DNA of 56,143 nucleotides. Source: Anaerolineae bacterium. GTDB taxonomy: Bacteria > Desulfobacterota > Desulfobacteria > Desulfobacterales > ETH-SRB1. The translations under genes were made by a program, and so were the position numbers. Below the pieces are notes generated by a model, which worked only from the letters and a program-made list of their open reading frames with translations, was not told the DNA's origin and ran no database searches. Shown here piece by piece: positions 34,636-56,143 of this stretch. The stretch's first letter is position 1. Each line of letters opens with the position of its first letter. The DNA lies in the NCBI GenBank assembly GCA_035529315.1, contig DATKWZ010000025.1, positions 1 to 56,143 of the forward strand, written 5' to 3'.

Positions 34636-34668
34636 ACTTAATCCTTTTTTAATCCACAGATTACACAT

Positions 34669-34816: not shown

Positions 34817-35701
34817 TTTCAAATTATGCGCTATGCCATGACAGTCACCACAGTTAGGAAATTTCTTCAGCATGCTATCAGAATGGGGTGCGCCGTGGCA
34901 TGCAAAGCACGGAGGAACTGTTTTATGTTTATTTTTGTGACAATAAACACAGGCCAGGTCATGGTGTTTAGTCGTGTTTGCCTCAAGCAGGCTTAAAGCT
35001 TCTTTATGACACGCCCCGCAGTAATCCGAGGGGGTATCGTCAGCGTAAGTGACAACAAGAGGCATATGGACAGGATGGCAGCTCACGCATGCCTTAAGGT
35101 CCATGCTATCGGTGTGCTTTTCGTGGCATTCCATGCAACTCGGGATCTTTTTGTGGGTTGTTGCGTGGCACTCGTTACAGGCCATTCCTGTGTGGACGCT
35201 CGGGTGTTCTTTGAGCTGATCTCCCACTTTCTGGTGACACGTCAAGCATGGTCCGGTAATTTCGCCCTCCAAAGTTAATTCAAGAGGAGCATGGGCGTCT
35301 GAATGGCAGCTTGAGCAATTCTCGAGTTCATAATGGGGCTTTTCGCTGTGACACATAATGCATTCAGGTACGGCCTTTGTGCCCAGGGGCGGATGCTCTA
35401 CGTGGCAGTCCAGGCATCCAACATCGGTTTTGTGTTTGCCGCCGCCGGCATCTATAGTTTGTGGCTGTTGCGGGTGGCACAAAACACATTGGGCATTGGT
35501 CATTTCCGGTGTGGTGGCTTTCCCAGCAACCTTAATCTGTTTGGAGGCCGCTGGTGAGGGCAGAATGCCGGTTTGTTGTTTACAACCAAAAGCAAAAATC
35601 AAAACGCCTGCTGCAAAAATACTGACGAGCACAACGGTCGACCTCATCGTTCTCAGGCTGCTGAATAATACAATACCTCTTTTTCTCTTCAATGCACCCA
35701 T
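34811..35701 (-). CDS. 12-haem c-type cytochrome (copy B)
   Basis: Twelve CXXCH motifs (CVLCH, CLDCH, CIMCH, CSSCH, CLTCH, CNECH, CMECH, CVSCH, CGACH, CVYCH, CFACH, CGDCH) in 296 residues. Start ATG has GGAGGT eight bases ahead. The N-terminal helix ends AFGCKQ; the Cys could be a lipidation site but the lipobox is weak. The region between the last five motifs matches copy A closely in spacing. It is upstream of copy A in the same direction and divergent from a small secreted-protein gene. Role inferred: periplasmic or outer-membrane-attached electron transfer. Confidence 0.88.
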   Translation of the reverse strand: MGALKRKRGIVLFSSLRTMRSTVVLVSIFAAGVLIFAFGCKQQTGILPSPAASKQIKVAGKATTPEMTNAQCVLCHPQQPQTIDAGGGKHKTDVGCLDCHVEHPPLGTKAVPECIMCHSEKPHYELENCSSCHSDAHAPLELTLEGEITGPCLTCHQKVGDQLKEHPSVHTGMACNECHATTHKKIPSCMECHEKHTDSMDLKACVSCHPVHMPLVVTYADDTPSDYCGACHKEALSLLEANTTKHHDLACVYCHKNKHKTVPPCFACHGAPHSDSMLKKFPNCGDCHGIAHNLKG

Positions 35702-39532: not shown

Positions 39533-39561
39533 GAGATTAAAACCTTTGGTAAAGCCTTACA

Positions 39562-40737
39562 TTATTTCAGACGAGAATGAATCTGTCCGACTTTAGACAA
39601 CTTCCTGCGCATAACATAATTTATCATTTTTGTGGCCAGCTTGCCGCCGGGATGCCATACCGAATGATCAATGTCTATCTTACCTATTTTTTTATTCCAT
39701 TTGCCGATAACCTCAAAACCATCTTCTGTCTCAAAGCCAAGATTATCTGTCTGAACGGCAAAGCCCGCCAACCGATTGGTGAGATCATAATGCCGCAGCA
39801 GACCGATTTCGCCTTTTGGCAATCTCTTAAATTCCCGGGTATCCACGACGATAGTTCTGGTCCATGGAGGCATCTCTTTGTATCTTTCTTTCTTTACACT
39901 TGAAAAGGAATTCTTCAAGACATTATCAAAATAAACGGTGCTGTTTTCGCATATCCAGAGAACATTTATGCAGCAGTCTTCCTCTATTCCTAACACCTGT
40001 ACACATTTTTTAAAGTATTCTTCTTTTGAGCACCCCGTATATCGACCCATATAGCCGCCGGTATCACAAATCCTGCTACCTTCTGGGAGGCTGAACCTTA
40101 TACCCTCTTTTTCGCAGGCATCAAGAAAGAGGACAAGTCCAAAAGTGGCGCCAATTAAAGCCAAAGGCTCCCCGGTTTTTTCGGCCTGCTTCAAGGATTT
40201 TAATAATGTCTTTATGTCAAGCCCAAAAAAGGATATAAGAAATCGGCTGTCAGAAGTTCCAAATTCCATCCTCACATGTTCCATCCCAATAGCCATCTCC
40301 ATCAATGGTGCCATCTTGGGGGATGGTACCATAAAAAGGATTTTCATCTTCTCTACGTCAGGGAATAAGTAAGCCTTGGTCAAAAGGGTATTGCCGGTAC
40401 GGATCATAGCAACAGCCCATTTATCCCGATACGTTTTTTCCTTTCTTTTTTCAAGCTGAACGATACCGCTGCTTAAATAGATCTGTTCAGCCTTTTCAGC
40501 AGGAAGTGAGTCAATGACAGCTTTCTTAAAAGCAAATGAAGAGACAGCAGGGATTTCTTCCCAGTGCGCGATAGTCTCGGGAACCACATTTAGACTTTTG
40601 CAAAATTCTTTATATGGCGCGCTTACATTATATTGGCGCTCAAATTCCTTGAGAGCCAGTTCGTTAAACCGTTTCTCGTCCAAATGGTCAAGACCTCGAA
40701 GAACGAATTCAAGGATATCCTGGTCGTGTTGTTTCAT
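39562..40737 (-). CDS. LuxE-like protein, copy 2, with altered ATP motifs
   Basis: 391 residues clearly homologous along the full length to copy 1 (for example LFMVPSPKMAPLMEMAIG, VVDTREFKRLPKGEIGLLRHYDLTNR, WHPGGK). The key motifs differ: TSGTS is replaced by SSGIV (89-93), and GMGETSTNYF by WICENSTVYF. Adenylation may be lost, leaving a regulatory or scaffold partner for copy 1. The frame is intact and as well kept as its neighbour, which argues against a dead gene. It is upstream of copy 1, 29 bp apart. Confidence 0.8.
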   Translation of the reverse strand: MKQHDQDILEFVLRGLDHLDEKRFNELALKEFERQYNVSAPYKEFCKSLNVVPETIAHWEEIPAVSSFAFKKAVIDSLPAEKAEQIYLSSGIVQLEKRKEKTYRDKWAVAMIRTGNTLLTKAYLFPDVEKMKILFMVPSPKMAPLMEMAIGMEHVRMEFGTSDSRFLISFFGLDIKTLLKSLKQAEKTGEPLALIGATFGLVLFLDACEKEGIRFSLPEGSRICDTGGYMGRYTGCSKEEYFKKCVQVLGIEEDCCINVLWICENSTVYFDNVLKNSFSSVKKERYKEMPPWTRTIVVDTREFKRLPKGEIGLLRHYDLTNRLAGFAVQTDNLGFETEDGFEVIGKWNKKIGKIDIDHSVWHPGGKLATKMINYVMRRKLSKVGQIHSRLK

Positions 40738-41138: not shown

Positions 41139-42044
41139 TTACAAGAAATACTGTGAATGGACTGTGGTCATCACAAAGGGGATGATAAAGAGGGTTGCAA
41201 TGGCAAACGCGATGCAAACCACGATGAACCAGGCAGCTTTTTCTCCCTGCCATTTAAAGAACCGCCTCAAGTGCAAATAGATCCCAAACAGGAGCAAAGT
41301 AATTAAAGACCACGTCTCAATAGGGTCCCATCCCCAGTATCTGCCCCAGCTTTGTTCAGCCCAGAGCGACCCTGAAACAACCATGATAGTCCAGGAGATA
41401 AACCCAAAACCGGCGTACTTGTAGCTATAGGCGTCAAGCGCCTCCAGAGACGGCAGCTTATTGTAAAATTCGTTTTCACCTTTCTTTTTTTTCAACAGAT
41501 AAAATATAGCTGTGCTAAGAGAGATTAGAATAGCTCCCACGGCAACAATTGTAAAAGTTATGTGAATTACAAACCATATACCGCAAAAGGTGGGCGGCAC
41601 CTTTGCAACCCCGGATCTTGCATAGATTCCCTTCTCCAAACGACCATGATCAAGGGTCTGCGCCAGTTGGTCCGATACCCAGGGGTTGGAGATAATTCCC
41701 AGGATCATCATTGCAAGACAGCAGGGAAGTATCACAAACCCGAGGCTTTTCAGCCTTGGGACTTTATAAACACAAACCAGAAATATAACCATACTCACCC
41801 AGACCGTGGAAGAAAATGACTCCATCTGTTGTAAATACGGCCCGTGGCCTACTGCATACCATCTTATTCCCAGAGCAATGGTGTGCGGAATCAGGCCGAT
41901 CAACGCGAGCCACAGCCCGACATTGAGGCTCTTTTCGTTTTTAAAGACCACATGCCTTACAAAGAATATCGTTGAAAAGAGATAAAAAAAGAGGGCAATC
42001 CAGTGGAAGATTACCTCATATTTAAGTAACTGAATCGTTTCCAT
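41139..42044 (-). CDS. ccsA: Cytochrome c biogenesis protein CcsA/ResC
   Basis: Haem handling subunit of System II cytochrome c maturation, ligating haem to CXXCH motifs outside the inner membrane. 301 residues with about eight TM segments and the Trp-rich haem-binding motif WAEQSWGRYWGWDPIETWSL in the C-terminal half, flanked by conserved His residues. It overlaps resB by 23 bp. Being in one cluster with cytochromes of 9, 6, 16 and 26 haems, it is likely dedicated to them. Confidence 0.93.
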   Translation of the reverse strand: METIQLLKYEVIFHWIALFFYLFSTIFFVRHVVFKNEKSLNVGLWLALIGLIPHTIALGIRWYAVGHGPYLQQMESFSSTVWVSMVIFLVCVYKVPRLKSLGFVILPCCLAMMILGIISNPWVSDQLAQTLDHGRLEKGIYARSGVAKVPPTFCGIWFVIHITFTIVAVGAILISLSTAIFYLLKKKKGENEFYNKLPSLEALDAYSYKYAGFGFISWTIMVVSGSLWAEQSWGRYWGWDPIETWSLITLLLFGIYLHLRRFFKWQGEKAAWFIVVCIAFAIATLFIIPFVMTTVHSQYFL

Positions 42045-43506
42045 GTTTTCCTAATTCCTTTTCGAGGTTTTCTCCCAGTTCCTTGAATTCTTCAGAAAAA
42101 AGAGCATTATATCTATTGGAACGTCCGCCCATAGAGACTTGTATATTATTCCCATCTTCTGTCACCTTCAAATAAACCTGTTTATAGGGAAGCATAAATA
42201 TCAAAAAGGCCCCTAATGTACTTAGGGCAAAACCACAGTAAACAAGGGGCATACCGCAGTTCTTCACAAAGGTCAGCCCTGTCCAGTAGCAAATCCGGAT
42301 AAAACTCAGACTGTCTTTATTGTTAAGTCCGGCCCTCTGGCTGAACAAAACCCTTCCCTTAAACCGTTGTTCTCCTTTCTCCATAACGGTTAAGTCAACA
42401 CCAGGAAAGGTCGCATAAAAGGAAGGCTCAATGAGATTGGGGTAAAATTTCATATTTAGGATATAGTCAGTGGTAGGAAAATCCATCTTTCCTTCAAGGG
42501 GTTTATCTTTTTTGCGCGAAACATCGAGTAAAAAATCGGTTAAAATATCCTCTCTTCCTTCCTTTTTCAGAATAAACCCTATGGCATATCCATAATCCAT
42601 GGCCTGATAGACCTTGGTCCCCTTAAAACGGATAGGACCTGCCGGAGAAAGCAAGAACTCCCTGGCCTCACCTTTTGAGTCAATAATCGTCAGACTGCTC
42701 TCCAGATTCTTGATCTGGTCATTCTCCCAATAGCTTGGGGTAAATTTATTAAGATACACCTTAAAGCCCGGATCAAAATTCCCGGCAAAAACACCAAGGC
42801 TCTTTGCCTGCCAATCTTCATTCTTACCTTGAAAGGTATCAGCCTGCTTAAGTTGAACAAAGCCCCTTTTTTGAAAAGCCAGACCGTAAAGGGCGGCCAG
42901 AATGCAAAGGAGAAGGCCCAAATGAAAAATAACACCCCCCCACCTTCCAGCCCTGTTTTTGCCGAAGAGAAAGTATCTGCTTTTTTCTATCGCCGGATAC
43001 AGCCGGTATCCCCTAACCTTAAAAACCCTCTTTATTTTACGTGCCAGTTCCTCAACTCTGACCTCTGACCCCTGACCCCTAATCCCTGACCCCTGCCCCC
43101 TAATCCCTGACCCCTGCCCCCTGATCCCCGATCCCTGGCCCCTGATCCCCGATCCCTGGCCCCTGATCACAAGGAAATCTTTAAAAGATCGTTCCGTGAT
43201 TTCCCTTTGAGCAGTTTCTTTTAATTTTATCAGAGTCTTTGATTGATAGTAAACGGAATAAGCGAGGCTGAGAGCAACGAGGGCTATTAGAATCAAAAAC
43301 CAAGTGGAAGTATATACCTGGTTGAGCTGCAAGAGATCGATCACATAATAAAGACTGGGGCTCCCGGCCTCCCATTGCTCAAAGAACTGCGGACTTTTTG
43401 TGGTAATTTGAGGTATAGTGGAACCGGCCAGGCAGGAGATGCCAACCGCACAGATTAAGTAAATTACGGTCTTGCGGGAAAGCAGGAACCTTTTGACTTT
43501 TTGCAT
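42022..43506 (-). CDS. resB: Cytochrome c biogenesis protein ResB, with internal repeat insertion
   Basis: Partner of CcsA. N-terminal TM segments (TVIYLICAVGISCLAGSTIPQ; STWFLILIALVALSLAYSVYY), a third at GGVIFHLGLLLCILAALYGL, a large periplasmic part and a last TM segment (MPLVYCGFALSTLGAFLIFML). SCLAGSTIPQ and FFEQW are ResB features. Residues about 114-150 are five tandem IRGQGSG heptads in the cytoplasmic linker before VEELARKIKRVF, encoded by the AATCCCTGACCCCT repeat found between genes elsewhere. The frame is kept because the unit is 21 bp. Confidence 0.9.
   Translation of the reverse strand: MQKVKRFLLSRKTVIYLICAVGISCLAGSTIPQITTKSPQFFEQWEAGSPSLYYVIDLLQLNQVYTSTWFLILIALVALSLAYSVYYQSKTLIKLKETAQREITERSFKDFLVIRGQGSGIRGQGSGIRGQGSGIRGQGSGIRGQGSEVRVEELARKIKRVFKVRGYRLYPAIEKSRYFLFGKNRAGRWGGVIFHLGLLLCILAALYGLAFQKRGFVQLKQADTFQGKNEDWQAKSLGVFAGNFDPGFKVYLNKFTPSYWENDQIKNLESSLTIIDSKGEAREFLLSPAGPIRFKGTKVYQAMDYGYAIGFILKKEGREDILTDFLLDVSRKKDKPLEGKMDFPTTDYILNMKFYPNLIEPSFYATFPGVDLTVMEKGEQRFKGRVLFSQRAGLNNKDSLSFIRICYWTGLTFVKNCGMPLVYCGFALSTLGAFLIFMLPYKQVYLKVTEDGNNIQVSMGGRSNRYNALFSEEFKELGENLEKELGKHGNDSVT
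43057..43167. repeat. In-frame 21 bp tandem repeat inside resB
   Basis: On the plus strand CCCTGATCCCCGATCCCTGG and variants such as CCCTAATCCCTGACCCCTG repeat about five times with a 21-base period, encoding IRGQGSG units. The words are those of the intergenic arrays at 9854, 11630, 34771 and 55156. Confidence 0.88.
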
Positions 43507-43804: not shown

Positions 43805-45358
43805 TTAGTGTCTCCCTCCACTGCCGCTGCATGGACTAACAGCAGAATAACAATTACTGTTACTGTTCCCATAACCGGTAGGTGTTGCTGCCCTGATAAA
43901 TTGTGTTAACGTTGCGGAATCGTCATTATAATCATATGGAGGAGGATCGGCCACATAAGCGATAAGCCGCTGGTGCGCAGAACCGTGAGGCAGGCCCACG
44001 TGGCACTGAACACATGTATAAGTAGTGTTGTGATTACCATTACCAGAGTGAGCATTGTTTTTCCAGCCAGTATCATATACAGGATGACATTTTGTGCAGA
44101 GGCAATCCGTACTAAAATTGTTGTACCCCTGTTGTGCATCGCCGAGGGTCCACAGGACGCCAGACGAATTTTTCGGCCAGCGGCCTTTCAAAATCGTGGG
44201 GCTGGCTGAGCCGTGGGGGCCTGCCGGCGGCAAAGAAGCATCGTCTCCGTGGCAGTCTGAGCAATACATGGTCTGGAGACCCTCATTTTTCCAATCAGTG
44301 CCCATCTGAGCATCGGTTAGTGCGGTTGAACCGTCACCTGTCAAGTCGGCTTCCACCGGATGGTATGATGCGTTCTTGTAATTGAACTGAAGGGCGATAT
44401 TTGTTTGCCCGGTAGGCTGTGTTGTCCAAGTGGAGTGGCATTTGAAACAGAGCTCGTATTCTTTGGTGATTCCCGTTTCATTATCTATGGTACTATACGA
44501 AGGTGCAATCCAGGCAGTGCTATTGGTAACCGACACGCCGCTGACACCAAGCAACACATTAGAAACTGCATTGGTTCCTATAGCGTGTGTGCCTGTTTTT
44601 GCTACATGGGGATTATGACAATCAACGCACTCGGCATGGCGCTTGTCAGTAACAGCATCATAGGCAAAATTGGCAGGTGTCATGTCCTCGCTTTCACTGT
44701 GTCTTCCGGAATAATCATCTGTGGGATGAGCAGAGGCTTTGTTGATCTGGGCCTGAATATCTTTGGTTGCTAATGCCGGACTACCGTCATGGCAGGCCTC
44801 ACAGAGATCCTCCTCGCGTTTAAAAAGCTGGCTGGGGATCAGGCTTCCATCGTCATATCCATGGGGGTTATGGCAGTTGAGGCAGTTACCGGCATCCGGG
44901 GACTGTGGTCCGGGAGGATTTCCATCAGGCCAGGAAAAATTGGCACTGTCATCGTGACTCGAGGCTTCATATTTAATGTACCCCTGATAAATCCCATATC
45001 GCCCATTTCCCGGTGTGCCGACTGCTAAGTTGTTGTGGCAGGCATAGCAGAGTTGATTTCTGTCGACGCCGCCATAGTTCTCTTTGAAAAGAGCATAGAT
45101 ATTTTGAGTGTCCCCTGTAGGTGCCGGCTCAACACCTCCAATAGATGCATGCATATCGTGACAGTGGCCGCAATGGCCTATGACATATTCATTTGTTACA
45201 TCCGGGTGCGCGGTAACACCTGTAACGGCGGATCGGTCCACACCGCTGACGCTGTCGCCATGGGCGGAATCAAGATAAGTCCCTGCATAGGCAAACCCAC
45301 TTCCCAAAAACATGAGGCTTATCAGCCATGCAAATATTGTCTTCATCTTATTCACCAT
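43805..45358 (-). CDS. 9-haem secreted c-type cytochrome with long spacers
   Basis: 517 residues, signal peptide ending AYA about residue 25, nine CXXCH motifs (CGHCH, CYACH, CLNCH, CEACH, CVDCH, CFKCH, CSDCH, CTKCH, CVQCH). Spacers are long and rich in Gly, Ser, Thr and Asn (for example PDGNPPGPQSPDAGN), as in cell-surface or extracellular cytochromes. The C-terminal 25 residues are odd: NSNSNCYSAVSPCSGSGGRH with two Cys not in haem motifs. It lies just upstream of the ResB/CcsA genes. A role in extracellular electron transfer is inferred from composition and neighbours. Confidence 0.85.
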   Translation of the reverse strand: MVNKMKTIFAWLISLMFLGSGFAYAGTYLDSAHGDSVSGVDRSAVTGVTAHPDVTNEYVIGHCGHCHDMHASIGGVEPAPTGDTQNIYALFKENYGGVDRNQLCYACHNNLAVGTPGNGRYGIYQGYIKYEASSHDDSANFSWPDGNPPGPQSPDAGNCLNCHNPHGYDDGSLIPSQLFKREEDLCEACHDGSPALATKDIQAQINKASAHPTDDYSGRHSESEDMTPANFAYDAVTDKRHAECVDCHNPHVAKTGTHAIGTNAVSNVLLGVSGVSVTNSTAWIAPSYSTIDNETGITKEYELCFKCHSTWTTQPTGQTNIALQFNYKNASYHPVEADLTGDGSTALTDAQMGTDWKNEGLQTMYCSDCHGDDASLPPAGPHGSASPTILKGRWPKNSSGVLWTLGDAQQGYNNFSTDCLCTKCHPVYDTGWKNNAHSGNGNHNTTYTCVQCHVGLPHGSAHQRLIAYVADPPPYDYNDDSATLTQFIRAATPTGYGNSNSNCYSAVSPCSGSGGRH

Positions 45359-45393: not shown

Positions 45394-46437
45394 TCAGCTC
45401 TTCGACGTATGGCAGACAACACACCCGCTCATATTGGCCTTGTTATCCCACCGCATGAGTTTGTAGTTGCCGGTTGCATGAGCCCCGTGGCACGAAAGAC
45501 ACATTATAATATCTGTTCCCGGGGCTACAACGTCGTTTGTGGTAGATGTGTTTATCGTGGCATAGACCGTTGATCTGGCAACCGGAGCCGTTGTGGAGTA
45601 AGTTGTGTACGATGCGTATTCACCGTCACTTGTTAAAACAATATCTGTTGGGTGCCTGAGCCATGGTGAAGCAGAGCCGATGGTTATATCATCTGTGCCC
45701 GGCCCATGGAAGTTACCGTGACATTCAGCACAAAGCCCGCTGATAGAATTTGATCCAGGACTTGATATACCACCTTCACTACCTCTGCTGGAAACTCCAT
45801 AATATTCATTGTGGATGATGGCTGTTCTGTTTTGCCACGGATAGGTGGCATCCATATTTTCGTGGCCTTTTACACCCAGTAAAAACCGATAGCTGTTGGC
45901 TACGGTATCAGCAATATTACAAAGTCCGCTCACCCCGGCATGATGGGCGCCTTTAATACTATCGAAATTGCCGAGTGTAGCGCGGTCGCCGTGACAGCCT
46001 TTTGTCCCGGCACAGGTTAAGTCTGTTGTAATTCCGGTATCATTTTCATCACCTGGGGGCTCAGTTAAGATATCTTCAGCATAACCTGTTAAGAGGTCTA
46101 CATTATGACCATATGCATCGTCGGTTATAATATGTTTAAAATTGCCGGCTGCCAGGTCTGTTTCGCCGGTGGTGTGATAAACTTGGGGGATTTTTTGTCC
46201 CAAGGTAACGTATTCCGAACCACTAGGGTCCTGACCATGACAGCCAAGACAGTTGCCGCGTACCAGGCTCGAGAAAGGAGCATCACCAAATCCTCCATAT
46301 GTCGCCATCGAAGCCCCGGCCTGGCTGTTGTGCATGGTATGGCAGTTTGAGCATTCTCCCGATACCTTGGCCTGAGGAGCGTCTGATGAGGCTATGATCA
46401 AAAGGATCAATATTATGCTGAAAGACAACCTTTTCAA
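45394..46437 (-). CDS. 6-haem secreted c-type cytochrome with a CX5CH site
   Basis: 347 residues with signal peptide and five CXXCH motifs (CSNCH, CLGCH, CAECH, CLSCH, CVVCH) plus CAGTKGCH, a CX5CH site at the third position that fits a non-standard haem attachment. The best start is TTG at 46437 with GGGAG eight bases upstream. Low-haem, Gly/Ser/Thr-rich, and 35 bp upstream of the 9-haem gene. It resembles surface cytochromes that polymerise or pair with outer-membrane conduits, but the family is not certain. Confidence 0.82.
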   Translation of the reverse strand: MKRLSFSIILILLIIASSDAPQAKVSGECSNCHTMHNSQAGASMATYGGFGDAPFSSLVRGNCLGCHGQDPSGSEYVTLGQKIPQVYHTTGETDLAAGNFKHIITDDAYGHNVDLLTGYAEDILTEPPGDENDTGITTDLTCAGTKGCHGDRATLGNFDSIKGAHHAGVSGLCNIADTVANSYRFLLGVKGHENMDATYPWQNRTAIIHNEYYGVSSRGSEGGISSPGSNSISGLCAECHGNFHGPGTDDITIGSASPWLRHPTDIVLTSDGEYASYTTYSTTAPVARSTVYATINTSTTNDVVAPGTDIIMCLSCHGAHATGNYKLMRWDNKANMSGCVVCHTSKS

Positions 46438-46542: not shown

Positions 46543-47448
46543 TTATTCAAACACACTGATGCGTGTATTTGCCCGGTCAACAACAAATATCCGGCCTGAA
46601 CTGTTTACACATATAAAAGAAGGCCGGTAAAGTCGTCCCTCTCTCCAGCCGGACTGTGAAAAAGCATATAAAAACCGGCCTTTGTCGTTGAATACAAGAA
46701 CCTGGTTTTTGTGTTGATCCGCTACATAGATCAGCCCTTTTTGATCAACAGCAAGGCTTGTCGGAAAATCGAATTCACCTTTGCCAGAGCCTCTGCTTCC
46801 AAACCTTAAAAGAAGATTGCCCTCGCTGTTATAAACGCAAATTGAACCATCAATGGTGCTCAGCACATAAATACGGCCTGTTTCGTCTACCTTCACATCT
46901 TTAAGACCCCGGCTTCCCTTGACCAATATCTGCTTTTTGAATTGTAAATTTGAATCAAACAGAAGAATCCTCTGGTTGGCTTTGTCCGCAATATAGAGGC
47001 GATCTTCTGAATCAATGGCCATGTTTCCAGGATAAATAGGGTTAGCCCCGGAAACAGCGGAAAAATCGATCGTTTTGATAGATTTTCGCTCAATATCAAT
47101 CGCCAGGACATTCCCCTTTCCAGGCTCGGCCACAAAAAAGTTGCCCTTGCTGTCTTTGACTATGCTTGTTGGCGAAGTCAGCGCGCCTCCACCGGTAAAT
47201 TTTGAGATATATTTAAACTCATCATTAAAAACAAATGCAAGAATCCTGCCATTTGTTGTGTCCGTGAAATATAACCTGTTCCTGTTTTCGTCAAAAAAAA
47301 TACCGCCAAGCAGACCAAAACGGCCTATTTCACTATTTCCGGTGATTGATGTCAGGTGTTTAACCTGTCCTTTTGACGCACAAAGTGCGGTCGCGGGTAT
47401 GATCAGGAAAAATAATAACAAAATGACGGGTTTTATCTTTCTACGCAT
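46543..47448 (-). CDS. NHL-repeat beta-propeller protein, exported
   Basis: About 301 residues from the ATG at 47448 (MRRKIKPVILLLFFLI signal peptide); the frame beyond to 47535 runs through repeat DNA and is not favoured. Six NHL-type blades, each with a phrase such as GNFFVAEPGKGNVLAID, DRLYIADKANQRILLF, GLIYVADQHKNQVLVF and GRIFVVDRANTRISVFE. Such propellers commonly occur with large multihaem cytochromes and porins in metal- and electrode-reducing bacteria. Function inferred: extracytoplasmic scaffold or ligand binding. Confidence 0.88.
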   Translation of the reverse strand: MRRKIKPVILLLFFLIIPATALCASKGQVKHLTSITGNSEIGRFGLLGGIFFDENRNRLYFTDTTNGRILAFVFNDEFKYISKFTGGGALTSPTSIVKDSKGNFFVAEPGKGNVLAIDIERKSIKTIDFSAVSGANPIYPGNMAIDSEDRLYIADKANQRILLFDSNLQFKKQILVKGSRGLKDVKVDETGRIYVLSTIDGSICVYNSEGNLLLRFGSRGSGKGEFDFPTSLAVDQKGLIYVADQHKNQVLVFNDKGRFLYAFSQSGWREGRLYRPSFICVNSSGRIFVVDRANTRISVFE

Positions 47449-47743
47449 AATTACTCCGGAAAATTTAATCAAGAAAACACGAAAGGATTTGGTCATAATT
47501 TCGGCCATTTTCACCACAAAGCACACGAAGATCACAGAAAAAGCGCTTGTTTTTACACACCCTGTCCGCTTCCCGCGTCCACCCCTCTTGTTAGAGGGGA
47601 TTTAGAGGAATTAACCTCCGACATCTGGCTTCTGTTTCTTTTTTTCATTCAGCATTCGATGTTGGATGTTGGACGTTCGATGTTCGACGTTCATTCTAAT
47701 CTTCTCACCTTCTAACCTTCTCACTCTTCCGCTCTCTGCTCCA
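47449..47743. repeat. 295 bp gap made of several word families
   Basis: From right to left on the minus strand: ATTCGATGTTGGATGTTGGA-type 7-8 base words and TTCTCACCTTCTAACCTTCT words (47651-47730), a CCCCTCT-TGTT-AGAGGGG hairpin (47582-47599), and CACCACAAAGCACACGAAG words (about 47510-47530). No gene. Confidence 0.65.
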
Positions 47744-49009
47744 TCAATACCCCTTATGGCATTGAATACACAACTGCTTTTTTCGATCAAATCTCAAAGC
47801 AAAATCATAAGGGCTCCCCATCAGGTTATGACAGGTGCTACATATAATCTTCCCCTTGGTCCTCGGGTCAATGGTATTTTCCCCTACAGGATGGGTGAAC
47901 GTGGCATGCCTTTTGTGGCAATTAACACACGCGGAAATTTCATCGGTGCTGTATAACAGCTCAAAGTCGGACCCGTGGGGACGATGGCAGTCTGTGCATT
48001 TTCCTTCTATAACCAAGGGGTGTTTGTGTTTGTTATTTTTGTCTTTTAAACGATCTTTTGTATCCTGATGACAGGTAGTGCATATTTTTTTCTCTTTTGC
48101 CTTTTTTAAACGAGCTTCATCCGAAGCATGCGGGCTGTGGCAGTCTGTGCAAAAAACCCCTTCTCCGACATGAGCGTTGACCTTTTTAAAATCCTCATTA
48201 ACCGATGGATGGCATGTAATGCAGACCGACACCCCCTTGGTTTTCATGCCCAGTGGATCTGTTGATTCGGCTGGATTATGGCATTGAGTGCATTTCTTAC
48301 CGGCAAACGGCTTGTGTGAATTCTCCTTGATCAGCTTCGTGCGATTAGAACCGTGGGGATTATGGCAGGAAATACAATCAGCCCCCTGCACAGGATAATA
48401 GAGGTGAGATTTTTCCGTCTTTTTATTCTTGACTGTATGGCATGTCACGCATATCTGTTCAGGGCTCTTTTCGACCAGCTCTTCGTAATCGGATGTATGG
48501 TGGCTGTGGCAACTTAAACAATTACCCTTTTTTACAGGATCATGCCTGTTCTTTTTCGAAAACATCTCTTTGCCGGCATGGCAGCTAAAACAGAGTTTTT
48601 CCCCTCTTGCTCTCAATAATTTTGGATTTTTTGATGAATGAGGGCTGTGACATTTCAGGCACGCTCCTTCCTCAAAAGGGGAATGGCTGTATTTTTTGCC
48701 GAAACTCCCTTTTTTGCCTTTATGGCAGGTTTTGCACAGCGCGCTGATCTCATCTTTTGCCAGATGTTCGTAATTTGAAGCATGGGGATTGTGGCAGCTT
48801 GAGCATTGATATTTTTTAAAAGGCTCGTGCCGCCCCTTTTGATCCATCTCCTTTTGAACTCCGGGATGACATTCCATACATTTTTTAAAGCCAACCTCCG
48901 TGCCTTTTGCATCAGCCGCATGAACCGCTATCTCAGGCAACAGGAATACCATAAAAAATATTAAATAAAATAAAGCTGTGTGATTTTTAACTTTAGGCAT
49001 TTTAGGCAC
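47744..49009 (-). CDS. 16-haem c-type cytochrome (doubled CXXCH type)
   Basis: 421 residues with signal peptide and 16 CXXCH motifs spaced about 22-28 residues. They come in the doubled-CXXCH pattern: a motif followed by NPHAS/SPHSS/RPHGS, then LCxxCH. Lys-rich spacers (FGKKYSHSPFEEGACLKCH). The ATG at 49009 and the N-terminus MPKMPKVK are encoded by the AAATGCCTAAAGTG repeat; the next Met is inside the signal helix, so the repeat supplies the start. It follows the 26-haem gene by 24 bp and shares its architecture, so both derive from one repeat series. Confidence 0.9.
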   Translation of the reverse strand: MPKMPKVKNHTALFYLIFFMVFLLPEIAVHAADAKGTEVGFKKCMECHPGVQKEMDQKGRHEPFKKYQCSSCHNPHASNYEHLAKDEISALCKTCHKGKKGSFGKKYSHSPFEEGACLKCHSPHSSKNPKLLRARGEKLCFSCHAGKEMFSKKNRHDPVKKGNCLSCHSHHTSDYEELVEKSPEQICVTCHTVKNKKTEKSHLYYPVQGADCISCHNPHGSNRTKLIKENSHKPFAGKKCTQCHNPAESTDPLGMKTKGVSVCITCHPSVNEDFKKVNAHVGEGVFCTDCHSPHASDEARLKKAKEKKICTTCHQDTKDRLKDKNNKHKHPLVIEGKCTDCHRPHGSDFELLYSTDEISACVNCHKRHATFTHPVGENTIDPRTKGKIICSTCHNLMGSPYDFALRFDRKKQLCIQCHKGY

Positions 49010-49036
49010 TTTAGCTCACTTTAGGCACTTTAATTA
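48995..49036. repeat. AAAGTGCCTAAAGTG array between 26-haem and 16-haem genes
   Basis: TTAGGCATTTTAGGCACTTT and further 10-11 base units on the plus strand cover the stop codon of the 26-haem gene, the whole 24 bp gap, and the start codon and first eight codons of the 16-haem gene. Same family as 7312-7371 and 8456-8640. Confidence 0.82.
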
Positions 49037-50983
49037 ATGACATTTCTTGCAGTTCCCCTCCTTAAACGGCGGGTGTAAAGCCTTGTGCATCAGGCCCTTG
49101 TTTTCCGCACTGTGTGCTTCATGGCAGCTTGTGCAATCTGTTTTATTAATGGCGATTCCGGAGTGTGCATCTACCATGGCCGAATCATTAATGTTGTGAC
49201 AACCATTGCAAAGGCTCGCCCCTTTGCCTGCAAGCAGGCTTTCAATGTTTGCATAGTGCGGCACATGGCACTTTAGACACATCCCATCCTTTGCCGGCGT
49301 GTGCTGAAATTTGTCTTTTTCAATATTAATCTGCATGTCCTGGTGGCATGACAGGCAGAGGCTCTCTGCGGGCCTGTTTAATCGCCCTTTTATTTTGCTT
49401 CCATGTGGATTATGACAGGATGTGCATTCTCCCTCTTTGATCGGCATGTGGGTATATTTGCTTTTTTGGGAAAGATCCTGAATGTTTCCGTGACACCCAT
49501 AACAATTATCCGCCCCTGTTTTAATCAACTGGAAATCGTTGTCACCGGCATGTTCGTCGTGGCATGTAAGACACCGGCCCTTTGCAAAGGATTCATGGAC
49601 ACTTCCCCCCTCAACATCATCGAGCATCCCCTTGTGGCAATTAAAGCAGAGTCTGTCTTTTTTCTGAATCAAAAGCTTTTCTCTGCTTTCTGAGTGTGGG
49701 TTGTGGCAGACCACACATTGTCCGATCCTGATCGGAGTATGAACATTAACTCTATCAAAGAGCATCTTCTCTTTTTGATGGCACATGTAACACTGCTCAA
49801 CCTCAGCGCGTTTGAGCTCAAACTTGTAATCCGATGCATGGGGGTCGTGACAAACAACGCAATCTCCCTTTTTAACAGGATTGTGAACATTCGACCGCGT
49901 AAAATCATCTGTCTTGTGACACTGGTAGCAAAGCTTTTTGCCCACTTCTTTTAATACATAATCATTGTTTGATGCATGTGGATTATGGCACGATGTACAA
50001 TTGTTCTCTTTTACCGGATTATGAACATGCTGTTTCTTAATCAACTCTTCTCTTTCTTTATGGCACGAATAGCAAAGCTTTCCATCAGGCAGAAGCGTTA
50101 TATGTTTATTGTCCGTGGTGTGGGGGCTGTGGCATGACAGGCAATTCCCATCTTGAACCGGTGAATGGGTATTGGTTTTCTTAAAATCCGCCTCATTTTT
50201 TGTATGGCACCCGTAACATAGATCAGCCCCGCTTTTTTTGATGTCTAAAGGGCGCTCTGATTCAGGCTGGTTATGACAGGAACTGCACTGATTCTGATCA
50301 AGCGGCGCGTGAGTGAATTCTCGAAACAGTTTTGTGTTTGAAGAAGAATGCGGCGTATGACAGGAAACACAGGAATCTCCCTCTAATTTATAGCCGGAAT
50401 GACTTTTGATAAATGCAGGGTTTTTAAAATTATGACATTTACCGCAAACATCGGCAGTTGAAGCAAAAAGTGATTTTTCATAATCAGAACCATGAGCATT
50501 ATGACAGGTCAAACACCCTTTTTCGGATAAGGGCGCATGCTGCATTTTTCTGTTATAGGTATCTTTTTTATGGCAGATAAAACAAAGATTGTTTCCCGCG
50601 CCTTTTAAGAGGTTTTTGTTTTCGGACGAATGTGGATTGTGACAGCTTATACACTCTTCTTCTCTTGCCGGGGGATGAGCATGCTTTTTGTCAAGCATGC
50701 TTTTCTTTTCTTTATGGCAGGTGTAACAAAGCTTCTTTTCGCTCACCTTCAGGTAAACGCCCCCGATTACGCCGTGGGGTCTGTGGCACGATTCGCACTC
50801 ATTGTTTTTTACAGGCTTATGGACAACCCCTGCCTTCTTAAACTCATCAGCCTTTTTTTGATGGCACTCAACGCATTTTTTCCTCACAAGCTGCCTGGAC
50901 ACCCTTTTCTCGCAAGAAACAGTTCCAACGATGATAATTGCGATCAATAGCAGCAATAAAGTGGCCGGTTTTATGAATTTCAT
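49034..50983 (-). CDS. 26-haem c-type cytochrome (doubled CXXCH type)
   Basis: 649 residues with 26 CXXCH motifs, about one per 25 residues, from CVECH near residue 37 to CKKCH at the very end. The N-terminal helix ends VGTVSCEKR; Cys24 is a possible lipidation site though the lipobox is not ideal. The doubled CXXCH pattern with NPHSS/SPHTT links repeats throughout. The protein stops directly after the last haem His, without the PH segment that follows the other motifs, and the stop codon lies in a repeat array, so the end may be trimmed. It overlaps the PPIC gene by four bases. Confidence 0.9.
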   Translation of the reverse strand: MKFIKPATLLLLLIAIIIVGTVSCEKRVSRQLVRKKCVECHQKKADEFKKAGVVHKPVKNNECESCHRPHGVIGGVYLKVSEKKLCYTCHKEKKSMLDKKHAHPPAREEECISCHNPHSSENKNLLKGAGNNLCFICHKKDTYNRKMQHAPLSEKGCLTCHNAHGSDYEKSLFASTADVCGKCHNFKNPAFIKSHSGYKLEGDSCVSCHTPHSSSNTKLFREFTHAPLDQNQCSSCHNQPESERPLDIKKSGADLCYGCHTKNEADFKKTNTHSPVQDGNCLSCHSPHTTDNKHITLLPDGKLCYSCHKEREELIKKQHVHNPVKENNCTSCHNPHASNNDYVLKEVGKKLCYQCHKTDDFTRSNVHNPVKKGDCVVCHDPHASDYKFELKRAEVEQCYMCHQKEKMLFDRVNVHTPIRIGQCVVCHNPHSESREKLLIQKKDRLCFNCHKGMLDDVEGGSVHESFAKGRCLTCHDEHAGDNDFQLIKTGADNCYGCHGNIQDLSQKSKYTHMPIKEGECTSCHNPHGSKIKGRLNRPAESLCLSCHQDMQINIEKDKFQHTPAKDGMCLKCHVPHYANIESLLAGKGASLCNGCHNINDSAMVDAHSGIAINKTDCTSCHEAHSAENKGLMHKALHPPFKEGNCKKCH

Positions 50984-52413
50984 GGAGTAGTTACCCGGTA
51001 TTTTTCTTCTATCTGTTTCAGAGCTTTTTTGTTAATCTTTATTCCGGACTCTTTACGCAACTTTGTTAAATATTCAGATATGATTTCGTTGAATTTTTTT
51101 TGCCCTGTTGCTTTTTTTAACTTATCGACGACCCTGAAGAACTCTATGGGCTTTCCACCTCTTTTGCCCTTTAATTTAATGATCCTGTATTGTCTGTCGT
51201 CGGCGATTACATTGCTGATCTCACCCGGTTTCAGCCGGTTTAACTCCTTACTGATTGCGGGAGAAAAGGAATCGGCATTAACCCATACAGCTCTTTGCCT
51301 TGGAATCCATCTTTCCGACACCCGTGCCGCCAAAAACTCAAAGCCCGCTCCCTGCTTTAATTCTTTCAAAGCTTTCTCAGCGTCTTTACTGGCATTAAAG
51401 ATCATCTCCCCGAACCAGACCTCATACCCTTTTTTATAGTCATCTATATGCTTTTCATAATATTGTGTCAACTCATTTTCCGTTGGAATTATCAGGGGAT
51501 AGATTAGCTTTGCCTTAAATTCATTGATAAGGAGCCGCTCTTTACGATTTTTAACCATATCCATAAATGCGGGCTCATTGACATAATTTCGCCTTAAAGC
51601 TTCCTGGTCGATTAATTTGAATGCTATCAGGTTATCCACAATCTTTTCTTTTAACTCATTTTGCGTTTTTTCCGGATGGTCACTGTTTTTTAACAAGGGC
51701 TGCTTCATGGCCTGCATGGTCTGTTTTTGAGTCGCCTGTTTCAAATCATGGAGAAAATCATCAGTGGGAATCGTATCATCATTTACGCTTGCCACCACCG
51801 ACTTTTCCCCTGTATAATTCTTTTCCAAGTCAAGCAGGTTAATCAGCTCACTGTCAATCCATATATCCGCCTGTTTTCTCAGCTCGGAAATAAAATTATC
51901 AGACAGCTCTTTCTCTTTTTCCTTTCCGAGGTTTTTTCTGATTCGCGGCTCTACCTTTTTAAACATCCCTTCAGGGGCTGGCCCATCTTTCTCATAACGC
52001 TCTTTAAAATACTCTAAAATATCTTGTTCGCTGATGTTGGTTTTATCAAGAATCTCTTCTTTTCTTAATCTGAGGATTGATTGTGTGGTCACGAAGGATT
52101 CAATCTTTTTTGTAAAATCAACAGACCTGTCGAGTTCTACCCTGTAAGCCTCCTGGATCATGAGTCGCTCATCGATAATATCTTCAACAATATCCGTGAT
52201 TTTGATACTGCCGGCGCCCTCTTCAGGCCGGATTTGCGGCTTATACCTGTGAATATCCTTAAGCCTCTCATAAAGAGCGTCTTCATCAATAAATTCGCCA
52301 TTTACTTCCGCAAGTACGCGTGTGTCAGGAGAACCGCAATGCAGGATATCTACACCTGCGACTGCAAGCCCAAAAAGCGCCATCAAAGCAAATACTGATA
52401 ATTTTTTCATCAT
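50980..52413 (-). CDS. PPIC-type peptidyl-prolyl isomerase / SurA-like chaperone
   Basis: About 477 residues from ATG-ATG at 52413, 22 bases after the preceding gene. Hydrophobic leader followed by Cys (DILHCGSPD), perhaps a lipoprotein. LAEVNGEFIDEDALYERL begins a SurA-N-like helical domain that is repeated (VASVNDDTIPTDDFLHDL). The parvulin part is near residues 330-420 with GEMIFNASKDAEKAL, LKQGAGFEFLAARVSE and LKPGEISNVIADDRQYRIIKL. Likely folds the barrel and cytochromes of this locus in the periplasm. The four-base overlap with the 26-haem gene indicates co-translation. Confidence 0.88.
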   Translation of the reverse strand: MMKKLSVFALMALFGLAVAGVDILHCGSPDTRVLAEVNGEFIDEDALYERLKDIHRYKPQIRPEEGAGSIKITDIVEDIIDERLMIQEAYRVELDRSVDFTKKIESFVTTQSILRLRKEEILDKTNISEQDILEYFKERYEKDGPAPEGMFKKVEPRIRKNLGKEKEKELSDNFISELRKQADIWIDSELINLLDLEKNYTGEKSVVASVNDDTIPTDDFLHDLKQATQKQTMQAMKQPLLKNSDHPEKTQNELKEKIVDNLIAFKLIDQEALRRNYVNEPAFMDMVKNRKERLLINEFKAKLIYPLIIPTENELTQYYEKHIDDYKKGYEVWFGEMIFNASKDAEKALKELKQGAGFEFLAARVSERWIPRQRAVWVNADSFSPAISKELNRLKPGEISNVIADDRQYRIIKLKGKRGGKPIEFFRVVDKLKKATGQKKFNEIISEYLTKLRKESGIKINKKALKQIEEKYRVTTP

Positions 52414-52435
52414 AAGAAGTTTGAAGTTCCTTCCC

Positions 52436-53011
52436 CTACGGCATTGTTTCAATCATCTCGCCAACCACTTTCCTGGTCAACTCGCCCACCGACCTGACCT
52501 TGCCGAAATCAATAACCTTTAGGTAGTCATCGCCTGTTCTTCTGTGTTGAGCCATCCACAAAATTTCCCCTGTTCGGGCGTCCACCATCCTCGCGCTGAT
52601 GGAAACCACGGGAACAACATCCCTTTTCTTTCCGTTTATCCCCACAAATTCTTCTATCCGGCCTATGATAACGGCATCCACTCCCAATCTTCTTCCCATA
52701 AGATTAATAGTATTAAGATCAACGCCGGTTCTCACAACAATTCGCTCGCCGATAAGAAAGCTCTTGATGTTACCAGGAAATTCCACCTTAAACTTTCTCA
52801 TTCCAACCAGGTTTGCGACAAAAGCCCCTCTTACAATTTTGTTTGCTTCGGCGCTTTTTGTATTGTTGTAAAAAGACAAAACCGCAACTTTTTTGACCAC
52901 CGACTGATCATGGTTTTTTCTGACATAGGCGTGCGGGGTGGCAGATAAAGAACAACCCGAGATGAATCCCAGGATAAGAAGCAGAAAAATGAATTTTCTT
53001 GTCTGGCTCAT
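52436..53011 (-). CDS. CsgG/LpoB-like lipoprotein
   Basis: About 191 residues from ATG at 53011, four bases after the preceding stop. Good lipobox ISGC with Cys20. The mature part has VVKKVAVLSFYNNTKSAEAN, GVDAVIIGRIEEF, MVDARTGEILWMAQ and an RTGDDYLKVIDFGKVRSVGELTRKVVGEM tail: the CsgG/TolB-N/LpoB fold used by periplasmic-side lipoproteins of the outer membrane. Two further proteins of this fold precede it. Role unknown; may assist assembly or anchoring of the barrel-cytochrome complex. Confidence 0.82.
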   Translation of the reverse strand: MSQTRKFIFLLLILGFISGCSLSATPHAYVRKNHDQSVVKKVAVLSFYNNTKSAEANKIVRGAFVANLVGMRKFKVEFPGNIKSFLIGERIVVRTGVDLNTINLMGRRLGVDAVIIGRIEEFVGINGKKRDVVPVVSISARMVDARTGEILWMAQHRRTGDDYLKVIDFGKVRSVGELTRKVVGEMIETMP

Positions 53012-53015
53012 CCAA

Positions 53016-54545
53016 TCAAAAATCCTCAACCCATTCATCTGTTTTTTTCTCAGGCTCAACCTCGGTTGCTTCAGGCTTAAGCATCTTTAAGGGTTGTTTT
53101 ACAAGTTGCAATCTGTTTCCGGCTATGTCTCTTACTTCAAGCGAATACGCAAGTTGCCCCTCTCCTTCGAGGTTCAGGCCTTTGTTTTGTTTTGTTTTAA
53201 CCGGGAAGACCATGGTTGCCGGGATATCCCCTTTGCCCTCAAACCTTCCTTCTTCAGAGCCTGTCCTGTCGTAAACAATGACTCCCCAATCAGCTATTTC
53301 GCTTATATCTTTGATTTCCAGCGACAGGGTAAGGCTTTCTTCATTTTCCTCTGTAAGAAAAACGGCAACCTCGGGCGAAGTTCTGTCAACCACGATATTC
53401 TCCTTTGCCGTGAACGTCCTGTTGCCCGCCTTATCTTCCACAAATAATTGACAGAAATATGTTCCATCTTTAACAGTCTTGTATTGATTATTCTCACCCC
53501 GCCAGACAAAACCCGCGGGCAGAGCGCCGAAGCCGCCTTCCGATCTCACTACGTTGCCGGCTTCATCTATAATCTTAACCTCCCAGCTTTCTAATATGAT
53601 TGGGTTCAGGAGTTCAGGAAAAAATTGAATATAGTCATTGATGCCGTCATTATTGGGAGATACAAGCCTTTGCGGAAACGAAAGAGCGATTTCGGGTGGT
53701 CTGTTGTGAACAGTCAGAGTGGCCGCGGAGTCTATAATAAAAAGCTTGTTTTGCTGGTCCGATATATAAATCTTCAGCGGATAGACTCCATCAATGGCCG
53801 GAGCTGAAATAATTCCAGTATACCACCTTCCGTCCTCGGTTTCAAGGTTAATCTCACTATCAAGAACAAATGCCTTGATATCCAGCAGCTTTCCGGTGAT
53901 CTCTCTGACCTCTATTGAGACGCGTGTTGAATTGCCGCTTCTTAGCACATCAGGAAAAAAACCTGCATGGCTAATCTCAATCGGAGTTACGGATGCGCCG
54001 GCAGGATCAATGGTAGACGGCAAGTTGCTTAATAGTTCCTCCGCTGTGATTTCTACCAGCTTCTTTAAAGAAGTTATCCTGCCCAGGCCGAGAAATGTGA
54101 CAAAGTCGTCCCCGGTGCGTGAAATAGAGTTAGCCCAGACAACAGAAGCATCAGAACAATTGATCATCTTGGCATTCATGACTACCTGTGGATTTTCATC
54201 ATTTTCAATGAGATCAACAGACCCTAATATCAGGACATCTGCCTTTAAAACAGCGCCCATTTCTCTGATAGTCGGTCTGTCTAAAAATTCTATTCCGCGG
54301 ATTCTTCTTTTGATAAGGAAATTTTCCAGAATATTCTGAGAAATAACATTGAATTCATTTTTTATGAGACGATCCGATATAAGACGCGTCACATCAATGG
54401 AAATATCTCCAACGGTAAATGTGCCAAAAGGTGTCACAGCCACTTTCTCTATTTTTATCACATTCTCTGCCCCAAAAATGCGACCAGGCAACCCTGGAAG
54501 CAAAAAGGCTAAAATAGCTGCTACGATGAATAAGTGTTTTTTCAC
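53016..54545 (-). CDS. CsgG-like domain fused to FlgD-type Ig modules, exported
   Basis: About 509 residues from a GTG at 54545 with GAGGT nine bases ahead; the ATG-type frame further up would overlap the previous gene. Signal peptide (VKKHLFIVAAILAFLL...IFGA), then a CsgG-like domain (KIEKVAVTPFGTFTVGDISIDVTRLISDRL, DVLILGSVDLIEND, VVWANSISRTGDDFVTFLGLGRI). In the second half are Ig-like modules with SPNNDGINDYIQF and GTYFCQLFVEDKAGN, as in FlgD/CHU_C-type domains. The tail TEVEPEKKTDEWVEDF is acidic. The fusion looks like a surface or envelope scaffold. Confidence 0.8.
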   Translation of the reverse strand: MKKHLFIVAAILAFLLPGLPGRIFGAENVIKIEKVAVTPFGTFTVGDISIDVTRLISDRLIKNEFNVISQNILENFLIKRRIRGIEFLDRPTIREMGAVLKADVLILGSVDLIENDENPQVVMNAKMINCSDASVVWANSISRTGDDFVTFLGLGRITSLKKLVEITAEELLSNLPSTIDPAGASVTPIEISHAGFFPDVLRSGNSTRVSIEVREITGKLLDIKAFVLDSEINLETEDGRWYTGIISAPAIDGVYPLKIYISDQQNKLFIIDSAATLTVHNRPPEIALSFPQRLVSPNNDGINDYIQFFPELLNPIILESWEVKIIDEAGNVVRSEGGFGALPAGFVWRGENNQYKTVKDGTYFCQLFVEDKAGNRTFTAKENIVVDRTSPEVAVFLTEENEESLTLSLEIKDISEIADWGVIVYDRTGSEEGRFEGKGDIPATMVFPVKTKQNKGLNLEGEGQLAYSLEVRDIAGNRLQLVKQPLKMLKPEATEVEPEKKTDEWVEDF

Positions 54546-54558
54546 AAAATCCGGACCT

Positions 54559-55143
54559 CTATCTCCCACCAAACAAGGTATCAAACATCTCCTCAACCAA
54601 CTCTCTGCAAAGGTCGCTGGAGCTCTTTTTGCCGATGCCGAAGAGCCGATCCAGAATTGTTGCTCCTTTTACACTGTGTGTCGCCTCCCAGAGTATCTTA
54701 TAAGATTTTGCATCTATCAGCTTTAAAGAAGCGGAGACTTCCGGATAAGAGCTGGTCCCTGCCCGCGACATACCGTATTCTTCAACCGCTCCAACAATAA
54801 AGGCCTGGACATTAAGCCGATTTCCAGCCCTTTCGGCAACACTTTTGCTGATAACGCCTTCTGTTTCCTTAACCCCTTCTTCCTTCAGGATCTTAGCTAC
54901 CTCTCCAAATTCAACAACATCAAATATACCCCTCCTTAGCACCTCCACAGCCACGACATTCATTAGCTTGCCTTCCGCGTCCTTCTCCTTGGTCAGGTTT
55001 TTCAGAGGCACAATGGCCACTGTTTTAATATATGTAAGATCGGCTGTAGGGTGGATATAACTCATGGGACCGCCACAATTGTAAAATAGCGGCAATACCG
55101 CAAGTAATAGTATTGTCTGCTTGATGCAACTTATTTTTTTCAT
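54559..55143 (-). CDS. CsgG/GNA1162-like envelope protein
   Basis: 194 residues with an N-terminal hydrophobic helix ending YNCGG (Cys23, non-standard lipobox), then TYIKTVAIVPLKNLTKEKDAEG, VVAVEVLRRGIFDVVEFGEV, NVQAFIVGAVEEYGMSRAG, SLKLIDAKSYKILWEATHS and SSDLCRELVEEMFDTL. This is the CsgG/TolB-N fold again, third copy in a row. Follows the barrel gene by about 46 bp filled with AATCCCTGA words and precedes the FlgD-fusion gene by 13 bp. Confidence 0.82.
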   Translation of the reverse strand: MKKISCIKQTILLLAVLPLFYNCGGPMSYIHPTADLTYIKTVAIVPLKNLTKEKDAEGKLMNVVAVEVLRRGIFDVVEFGEVAKILKEEGVKETEGVISKSVAERAGNRLNVQAFIVGAVEEYGMSRAGTSSYPEVSASLKLIDAKSYKILWEATHSVKGATILDRLFGIGKKSSSDLCRELVEEMFDTLFGGR

Positions 55144-55155
55144 CTGTTCTCCATT

Positions 55156-55194
55156 TAATCCCTAATCCCTGCTCCCTAATCCCTGACCCCTAAA
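55156..55194. repeat. AATCCCTGACCCCT words at the barrel stop codon
   Basis: TTAATCCCTAATCCCTGCTC and further units on the plus strand; the minus-strand TAG of TTTTAGGGGTCAGGG is the barrel gene's stop. Same family as 9854, 11630, 34771 and the resB insertion. Confidence 0.8.
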
Positions 55195-56143
55195 ACCTTG
55201 CTGAAAGATTTGTGGTAAAAGTCTGTGTTTCCGTAATAATATCCGCCTTCTGGCAACTCCAATTGTAATTGAACCTGAGTGTGAACATCCGGCTTAAGTT
55301 CCATGAAAGGTCGGAAGAATAAGTTGAGCTGATAGTATCATTCCTGCTTAAGGTATATCCCATATTAATCTGCGTCTTATCGGTCATCAACCAGTTCATG
55401 TTATACTGTTGCTGAGCGGTTTCATCTCCTGACGTATGATCTCTGTCAACGCCATAAGAGCCTCTAAGGTAAAAACCATGGGAGGGCCGCCAGTAAAGCG
55501 TGCATTTAGCATCGTGAGTTCTGCCGTCGCTGCTACTGTCCGGATTTTCTGTTTCCGTCCAGTTGTTATTATATTCAATCTCGGCTGTCAACATTCTGGT
55601 AAGTTCAAGTCGCAAATTTGAGTTAATATACCTGGTGGTTGTCTCAGATTGGCTGACAGGATTTTCCGAACGGGTGATGTTTGTGTCCACATCCAGATCA
55701 GCCCCCTCACGGAGTTTTGCTGATATCTGAAGCAAAGCAGATGAGACCTTTGACTGGGTTTCGCCGTCTTCTTTTGATACAGTGTGATTCACCGAAAGAT
55801 CGGTGTCAAGGGCTTTTAAAGGGGATGAAAGAAAGTGCAACCGATATGTATCGGTTGTATTATCCGTTGTTTCTGCCTCAGAATCATATTTATATTCCTG
55901 CCGTCTGCGATACTCCGGCCGGATTTTGAGATACTTATGAACTTTAAATTCTTTTCCGATGAGACCGGATATATTATGGTTTGATTGCCTGGTTTTGGTT
56001 GAATCGGCGTCCGTTTGATCCTTTTCCTGCTCGTCCTGCGTGAAATCATACGTAAAAGAGAGCCAATCCGTAGGCTTATATCTAAGATTTGTCTGGGTGG
56101 TTTGTGTAGTCTGATCTGTTTCGGTTGTGGTAAAGGCGGCCTG
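55190..56143 (-). CDS. Outer-membrane beta-barrel protein, C-terminal part (cut by window edge)
   Basis: The minus-strand frame is open from the window edge to the stop at 55190 (317 codons), so the gene starts outside the window. The product alternates hydrophobic and polar residues in about 10-residue strands with polar turns (for example LRLELTRMLTAEIEYNNNW, QINMGYTLSRNDT, RMFTLRFNYNWS), is rich in Thr, Asp, Asn and Tyr, has few Cys, and ends in Phe (SARF): a classical outer-membrane barrel. Beside 26- and 16-haem cytochromes it is the best candidate for the porin part of a porin-cytochrome conduit. No family name is claimed. Confidence 0.8.
   Translation of the reverse strand, partial: QAAFTTTETDQTTQTTQTNLRYKPTDWLSFTYDFTQDEQEKDQTDADSTKTRQSNHNISGLIGKEFKVHKYLKIRPEYRRRQEYKYDSEAETTDNTTDTYRLHFLSSPLKALDTDLSVNHTVSKEDGETQSKVSSALLQISAKLREGADLDVDTNITRSENPVSQSETTTRYINSNLRLELTRMLTAEIEYNNNWTETENPDSSSDGRTHDAKCTLYWRPSHGFYLRGSYGVDRDHTSGDETAQQQYNMNWLMTDKTQINMGYTLSRNDTISSTYSSDLSWNLSRMFTLRFNYNWSCQKADIITETQTFTTNLSARF

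Follow-up and report, generated by a model that had tools for sequence, protein, structure and literature searches.

Gene content of the locus

The window, i.e. the whole analysed stretch of 56,143 nucleotides, is contig 25 of a 2.2 Mb genome that is 98 % complete. A run of minus-strand genes at its end encodes, in this order, an outer-membrane barrel, three proteins designated G1, G2 and G3 (the triad), a PpiC-type peptidyl-prolyl isomerase, cytochromes with 26 and 16 CXXCH motifs and a propeller protein. The barrel gene (55190..56143) shows a weak OMP_b-brl match and is incomplete, as the contig end at position 56143 falls inside it; relatives contain full-length barrel homologues of 560-770 amino acids at the same position. 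It is followed by genes for G1 (54559..55143), a PelC/GNA1162-like putative lipoprotein of 194 amino acids, G2 (open reading frame 53016..54596, 526 amino acids), a secreted protein with a PelC/TolB-N-like and three Ig-like domains, and G3 (52436..53059), a PelC-like putative lipoprotein of 207 amino acids. The PpiC/SurA-like isomerase (50980..52452; Rotamase_2 2.3e-15, SurA_N_3 1.1e-11) comes directly after the triad and precedes a 26-heme cytochrome lipoprotein of the OetB type (49034..50983), the cysteine 23 of which is invariant in the alignment, and a 16-heme cytochrome of the OetA type (47744..49009). A preliminary description of this DNA had placed three consecutive open reading frames upstream of a chaperone and giant cytochromes, and both the coordinates and this arrangement proved to be correct. 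The same run continues with the six-bladed NHL beta-propeller (46543..47535; NHL 2.8e-23), a putative extracellular cytochrome with 5 CXXCH motifs (45394..46437), whose homologues flank other oet loci, and a cytochrome with 9 CXXCH motifs (43805..45358). All heme numbers are CXXCH counts. Judged from the coordinates, the genes from the barrel to the 16-heme cytochrome are separated by tight intergenic gaps or overlap, and they therefore likely form a single transcript.

The core of this run corresponds to a known electron conduit. According to the parts of the two papers considered here, the four-gene core of isomerase, 26-heme cytochrome, 16-heme cytochrome and propeller was described for SEEP-SRB1 and relatives by Skennerton et al. 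2017 (PMC5539420), and Murali et al. 2023 (PMC10553843) later gave the name OetABI conduit to this core plus the barrel. OetABI, with OetI as its barrel, is an outer-membrane porin:cytochrome conduit through which electrons are proposed to enter the sulfate reducers that partner with methane-oxidising archaea. The window contains all four core genes as given in PMC5539420 and, in the same run, the partial beta-barrel with its homologues in relatives. The conduit of the window is predicted to carry out extracellular electron transfer.

Several other genes of the window were noted. A ResB-like cytochrome c maturation gene (42022-43506), in which RGQGSGI is repeated in tandem and in frame, is followed by a CcsA-type gene (41139-42044), and two adjoining cytochromes with 12 CXXCH motifs each are located at 33748-35701. 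Two similar neighbouring open reading frames (38309-40737) resemble, by eye, acyl-protein synthetase (LuxE-like) genes, and beside them lies a probable gene for a B12-binding radical SAM protein (36615-38075), likewise recognised by eye. An Rfam scan of the window revealed no RNA family.

Sequence features of G1, G2 and G3

The xVAVxPF / GVDAxIxGxIxE layout reported in the preliminary description is present in all three proteins, as KTVAIVPLKNLT and LNVQAFIVGAVEEY in G1, EKVAVTPFGTFT and LKADVLILGSVDLI in G2, and KKVAVLSFYNNT and LGVDAVIIGRIEEF in G3. In G2, the PelC/TolB-N-like domain (approximately residues 49-196) precedes the three Ig-like domains, one of which is of the CHU_C/FlgD type, and the C-terminus carries a conserved EWVEDF. 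The Ig module that had been recognised in this middle protein was borne out by Pfam (CHU_C 5.5e-8, FlgD_ig 5.4e-4), and the protein contains the additional stretch SPNNDGINDYIQFF. Type IX secretion cargo was considered for G2 and rejected, since its CHU_C domain lies inside the protein (residues 310-386 of 526) and not at the C-terminus.

Column counts revealed that cysteine 23 of the G1 lipobox is invariant (37/37 homologues) and that cysteine 36 of the G3 lipobox is present in 26 of 28 homologues. From these cysteines, G1 and G3 are predicted to be outer-membrane lipoproteins. No lipobox was detected in G2 in its three-gene form. G3 also contains a conserved RxGxDY motif. Comparison with relatives suggests that translation of G2 begins at approximately position 54545 and not at the TTG at 54596, and that the probable start of G3 is near position 53011.

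Conservation of the triad beside the conduit genes

The analysis covered loci of named genomes, of the family to which the window belongs and of a 395-genome sample of the phylum, and a locus was regarded as complete if barrel and isomerase were on one contig. Gene content was scored by a six-frame profile search, as automatic calls gave overlapping false open reading frames in GC-rich genomes. The domains of G1, G2 and G3 were located between barrel and isomerase, in that order, in 53 of 53 complete loci, a count that involves a mild circularity through profiles retrained on neighbours; most members had already been found with profiles from the window's family and the named loci alone. The named relatives with oet loci are MAGs of Desulfobacterales, one of which (L061, same contig as G014) is an EthSRB1 MAG from the same family as the window, and of Desulfofervidaceae, Desulfuromonadaceae and Nitrospinota.

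Among the 395 genomes, 43 contain G1 (at least 180 bits) together with the 26-heme cytochrome and 343 contain neither; the cytochrome occurs without G1 in 5 genomes and G1 without the cytochrome in 4 (Fisher p 4e-47, a value that ignores shared ancestry). The single-gene genomes are mostly explained by short or broken contigs or contig ends; one odd genome, G280 (L236), contains masked stretches. In the window's own family of 17 genomes, 8 have both genes and 6 lack both, and the remaining three carry G1 on a contig that breaks off close to the isomerase gene. The triad is missing in five of the seven genomes of the window's own genus. We rejected weak conservation as the reading of this pattern, since the same genomes also lack the 26-heme cytochrome: the triad was gained or lost together with this cytochrome inside the family.

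In a joint tree, G1, G2 and G3 separate almost cleanly into three groups with 8 label changes, compared to a minimum of 5 and 87 expected from shuffling. The pairwise distances of G1-G3 correlate with those of barrel, isomerase and cytochromes (r 0.88-0.93), as would be expected of any co-inherited genes. The PelC-like domain of G2 and G3 constitute one polypeptide, in most cases a lipoprotein, in 14 of the 53 complete loci, which argues that G2 and G3 would touch each other. Four loci contain a second copy of G1, and some homologues (L189, L197, L201) carry additional Ig/PKD-like repeats, ranging in number from one to about eight.

Taken together, membership of the triad in the conduit gene cluster is firmly supported. 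The earlier suggestion of an assembly dedicated to surface cytochromes thus gains strong support from the 53 complete loci, the co-occurrence across the sample and the joint gain or loss in the family; a prevalence of triads in loci without cytochrome or barrel genes was not found.

Individual loci show further variation. A G2-G3 fusion lipoprotein of 1150 amino acids (L189:8302-11751) carries approximately eight PKD/Ig-like repeats before two PelC-like domains. Several lineages (L032:4181-6096, and similarly L052, L055, L057, L064, L065, L067 and L069) have an insertion inside the triad or immediately behind it, consisting of a 4-5-heme cytochrome and a protein of about 190 amino acids, which in L032 has a HAMP domain. 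Many loci, such as L030:6006-8835, contain a second NHL propeller, in L030 with a bacterial SH3 domain, and a propeller lipoprotein of about 475 amino acids upstream of the barrel. The public contig MAXP01000099.1 (L049, L050) contains two copies of the oet core in inverted orientation to each other, which may be an artefact of assembly.

Fold and nearest relatives

The assignment of G1 combines Pfam, PDB profile, AlphaFold, VIA-align and column-count results. In the PDB profile searches, PelC was the top match of G1 (E 6.6e-11) and G3 (2.9e-8), followed by GNA1162; LpoB was marginal and CsgG was absent from the matches of both proteins. The confident AlphaFold model of G1 (pLDDT 91.7) aligned best with PelC (PDB 5t11, 5t10, 5t0z and 9h80) with a VIA-align Z of 17.2 over 137 residues and an rmsd of 2.7, ahead of GNA1162 (Z 13.4), FlgT (Z 12.2), CsgG (Z 11.6) and LptE (Z about 8.4-8.8). 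Foldseek also placed PelC first. For G2, the confidence of the model is lower (pLDDT 69); the best structural matches of its N-terminal domain are FlgT (Z 11.7) and GNA1162 (Z 11.6). In Pfam, G1 passes the cut-off of the GNA1162-like family (PF05643; 9.1e-8, 32.3 versus 25.9 bits) and G3 remains below it with 22.4 bits.

Sequence profiles and models thus suggest that G1-G3 share the broad CsgG/TolB-N fold, with PelC as the closest solved relative. 'PelC-like' refers here to kinship and fold and not to membership of the PelC family, because two residues known to matter in PelC are not conserved: Trp-149, which lies at the membrane and packs the lipid anchors, and Asp-119 of the pore loop (PMC12141448). 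At the Trp-149 position, G1 of the window has A161 and its homologues mostly Y, A, T or G, and the tryptophan is not conserved in the column counts of G3 either; the Asp-119 position corresponds to S131 of G1 in the window, and most G1 homologues have Ser or Tyr there.

The proteins had been described as having a CsgG fold, which holds at the level of the superfamily and not for CsgG itself: the Pfam CsgG match of G3 (14.2 bits) is below the gathering cut-off of 20.8, G1 and G2 are not listed, and PelC is closer. The same score and the shape of the model led us to reject a CsgG-type secretion pore. The two membrane-inserting beta-hairpins per subunit that form the pore of CsgG are absent; the G1 model instead has compact strands (114-128 and 131-144) with a short turn between them in about 172 mature residues, and of the 191-257 residues of the CsgG chains only 135-148 align to it. 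Nothing was found that shows secretion, although a secretion-like assembly had also been considered.

A possible collar at the mouth of the OetI barrel

How might the triad contribute to the conduit? A ring or anchor role is plausible in view of PelC, the closest relative of known structure, which is a 12-subunit lipoprotein ring bound to the PelB barrel in Pel export (PMC12141448). By analogy with PelC under PelB, the PelC-like domain of G2 could assemble with G1 and G3 into a collar that surrounds the OetI barrel mouth on the periplasmic side of the outer membrane, probably as a mixed ring built from the three paralogues. This collar would align the barrel with the 16-heme OetA entering it and with the 26-heme OetB. 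The Ig arms of G2 may extend into the periplasm, and the PpiC isomerase could act as periplasmic chaperone for the folding of these large conduit parts. We give an even chance to the full reading, in which G1-G3 are an outer-membrane-anchored collar and a lasting structural part of the Oet conduit. The fixed gene neighbourhood, the co-inheritance, the lipoprotein signals, the PelC-like fold and the G2-G3 fusion speak for it, as do the relatives found beside the barrel of a second multiheme cluster (one copy; L242, L243, L247) and before a 42-CXXCH cytochrome (two copies; L248). Against it stand the two PelC residues that are not kept and the lack of a TPR match: PelC binding requires the PelB stalk and TPR helices (PMC12141448), and no TPR domain was matched in the one full-length oet barrel scanned (L030) nor in the barrel of L243.

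The neighbouring isomerase fits an assembly role equally well. In the main alternative reading, the triad would be a transient factor that, together with this enzyme, brings the barrel to Bam or OetB and the extracellular cytochromes to the surface. Its fixed place directly before the isomerase gene is in line with this, as is the general fold shared with the lipoproteins LptE and CsgG. However, the PelC ring is permanent in its complex (PMC12141448), the CsgG-type hairpins that make a pore are missing and the locus yielded no known partner for export, and we consider a transient role unlikely, if worth weighing.

A further reading, which we regard as distinctly improbable, is that the triad uses the Ig arms of G2 to fasten the conduit to the cell wall or to connect it with other components of the envelope, similar to LpoB or FlgT and without a closed ring. 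It could account for the extra Ig/PKD-like repeats of some homologues and for the G2 domain having the flagellar H-ring protein FlgT as its best structural match, and the Pfam LpoB match of G1 is above the cut-off (28 versus 22.3 bits). The NCBI LpoB equivalog (TIGR02722), however, yielded 20.4 and 21.5 bits, far below its cut-off of 110.55, and domain scans of G1-G3 detected no peptidoglycan-binding domain. An origin in a polysaccharide or other export pathway, with a place beside cytochromes by accident or shared transfer history, is disfavoured and very improbable: distant relatives do occur in export loci (in L244, two precede Poly_export/SLBB and Wzz-type proteins), but the oet loci have no polysaccharide gene in common, and the triad is found in every complete locus, as three nearly clean paralogue groups in an order fixed across many families.

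Relatives of the triad also occur in other multiheme clusters. The cluster at L243:5426-13044, likewise present in L242, L246, L247, L252 and L253, encodes a barrel, one PelC-like lipoprotein, a PpiC isomerase, an NHL propeller, a redoxin (195 amino acids) and a redoxin-decaheme fusion (about 600 amino acids), and no description of it was found in the literature considered here. The lone PelC-like protein is located between the barrel and the isomerase or propeller (L242, L243, L246, L247, L252). At L248:5271-11621, a barrel is followed by two PelC-like lipoproteins and a cytochrome of 1049 amino acids with 42 CXXCH motifs. The occurrence in decaheme, 42-CXXCH and polysaccharide export loci suggests that PelC-like lipoproteins could be general partners of outer-membrane barrels and exporters. 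Returning to the collar, we tentatively propose a class of conduits in which three PelC-like subunits, one of them Ig-armed, would ring the OetI mouth and position the 16- and 26-heme wires, with simpler one-subunit versions in the decaheme clusters, a reading that we rate as somewhat less likely than not.

Comparison with known systems

The locus resembles the described OetABI systems also in its extra extracellular cytochromes and in the Desulfobacterota hosts, which include relatives of ANME partners. The difference concerns the triad, which is constant between barrel and isomerase in the loci analysed here and unnamed in the main text of the OetABI papers. The main-text passages of PMC5539420 and PMC10553843 do not mention CsgG- or PelC-like proteins, and literature searches that combined CsgG or PelC with conduits returned nothing relevant. 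The triad is thus apparently a constant but unreported part of the OetABI gene cluster. Existing descriptions cover the cytochromes, the barrel, the isomerase and the propeller, so models of the complex would miss three subunits; the triad may also serve as a marker for genuine conduits, even where the cytochromes diverge.

GNA1162, LpoB, the N-domain of TolB and FlgT have the same fold as the triad, with structural scores below that of PelC (Z 13.4 and lower) and an unrelated genomic context. CsgG, the curli secretion channel, shares the core fold, and no curli genes were noted in oet loci. PelC resembles the triad in fold, size, lipid anchor and a gene adjoining that of an outer-membrane barrel. 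It is, however, a single protein, whereas three paralogues, one with Ig arms, are present here, and it serves sugar export, whereas the triad is located with an electron conduit. This provides a testable structural link between the outer-membrane machines of sugar export and those of electron transfer.
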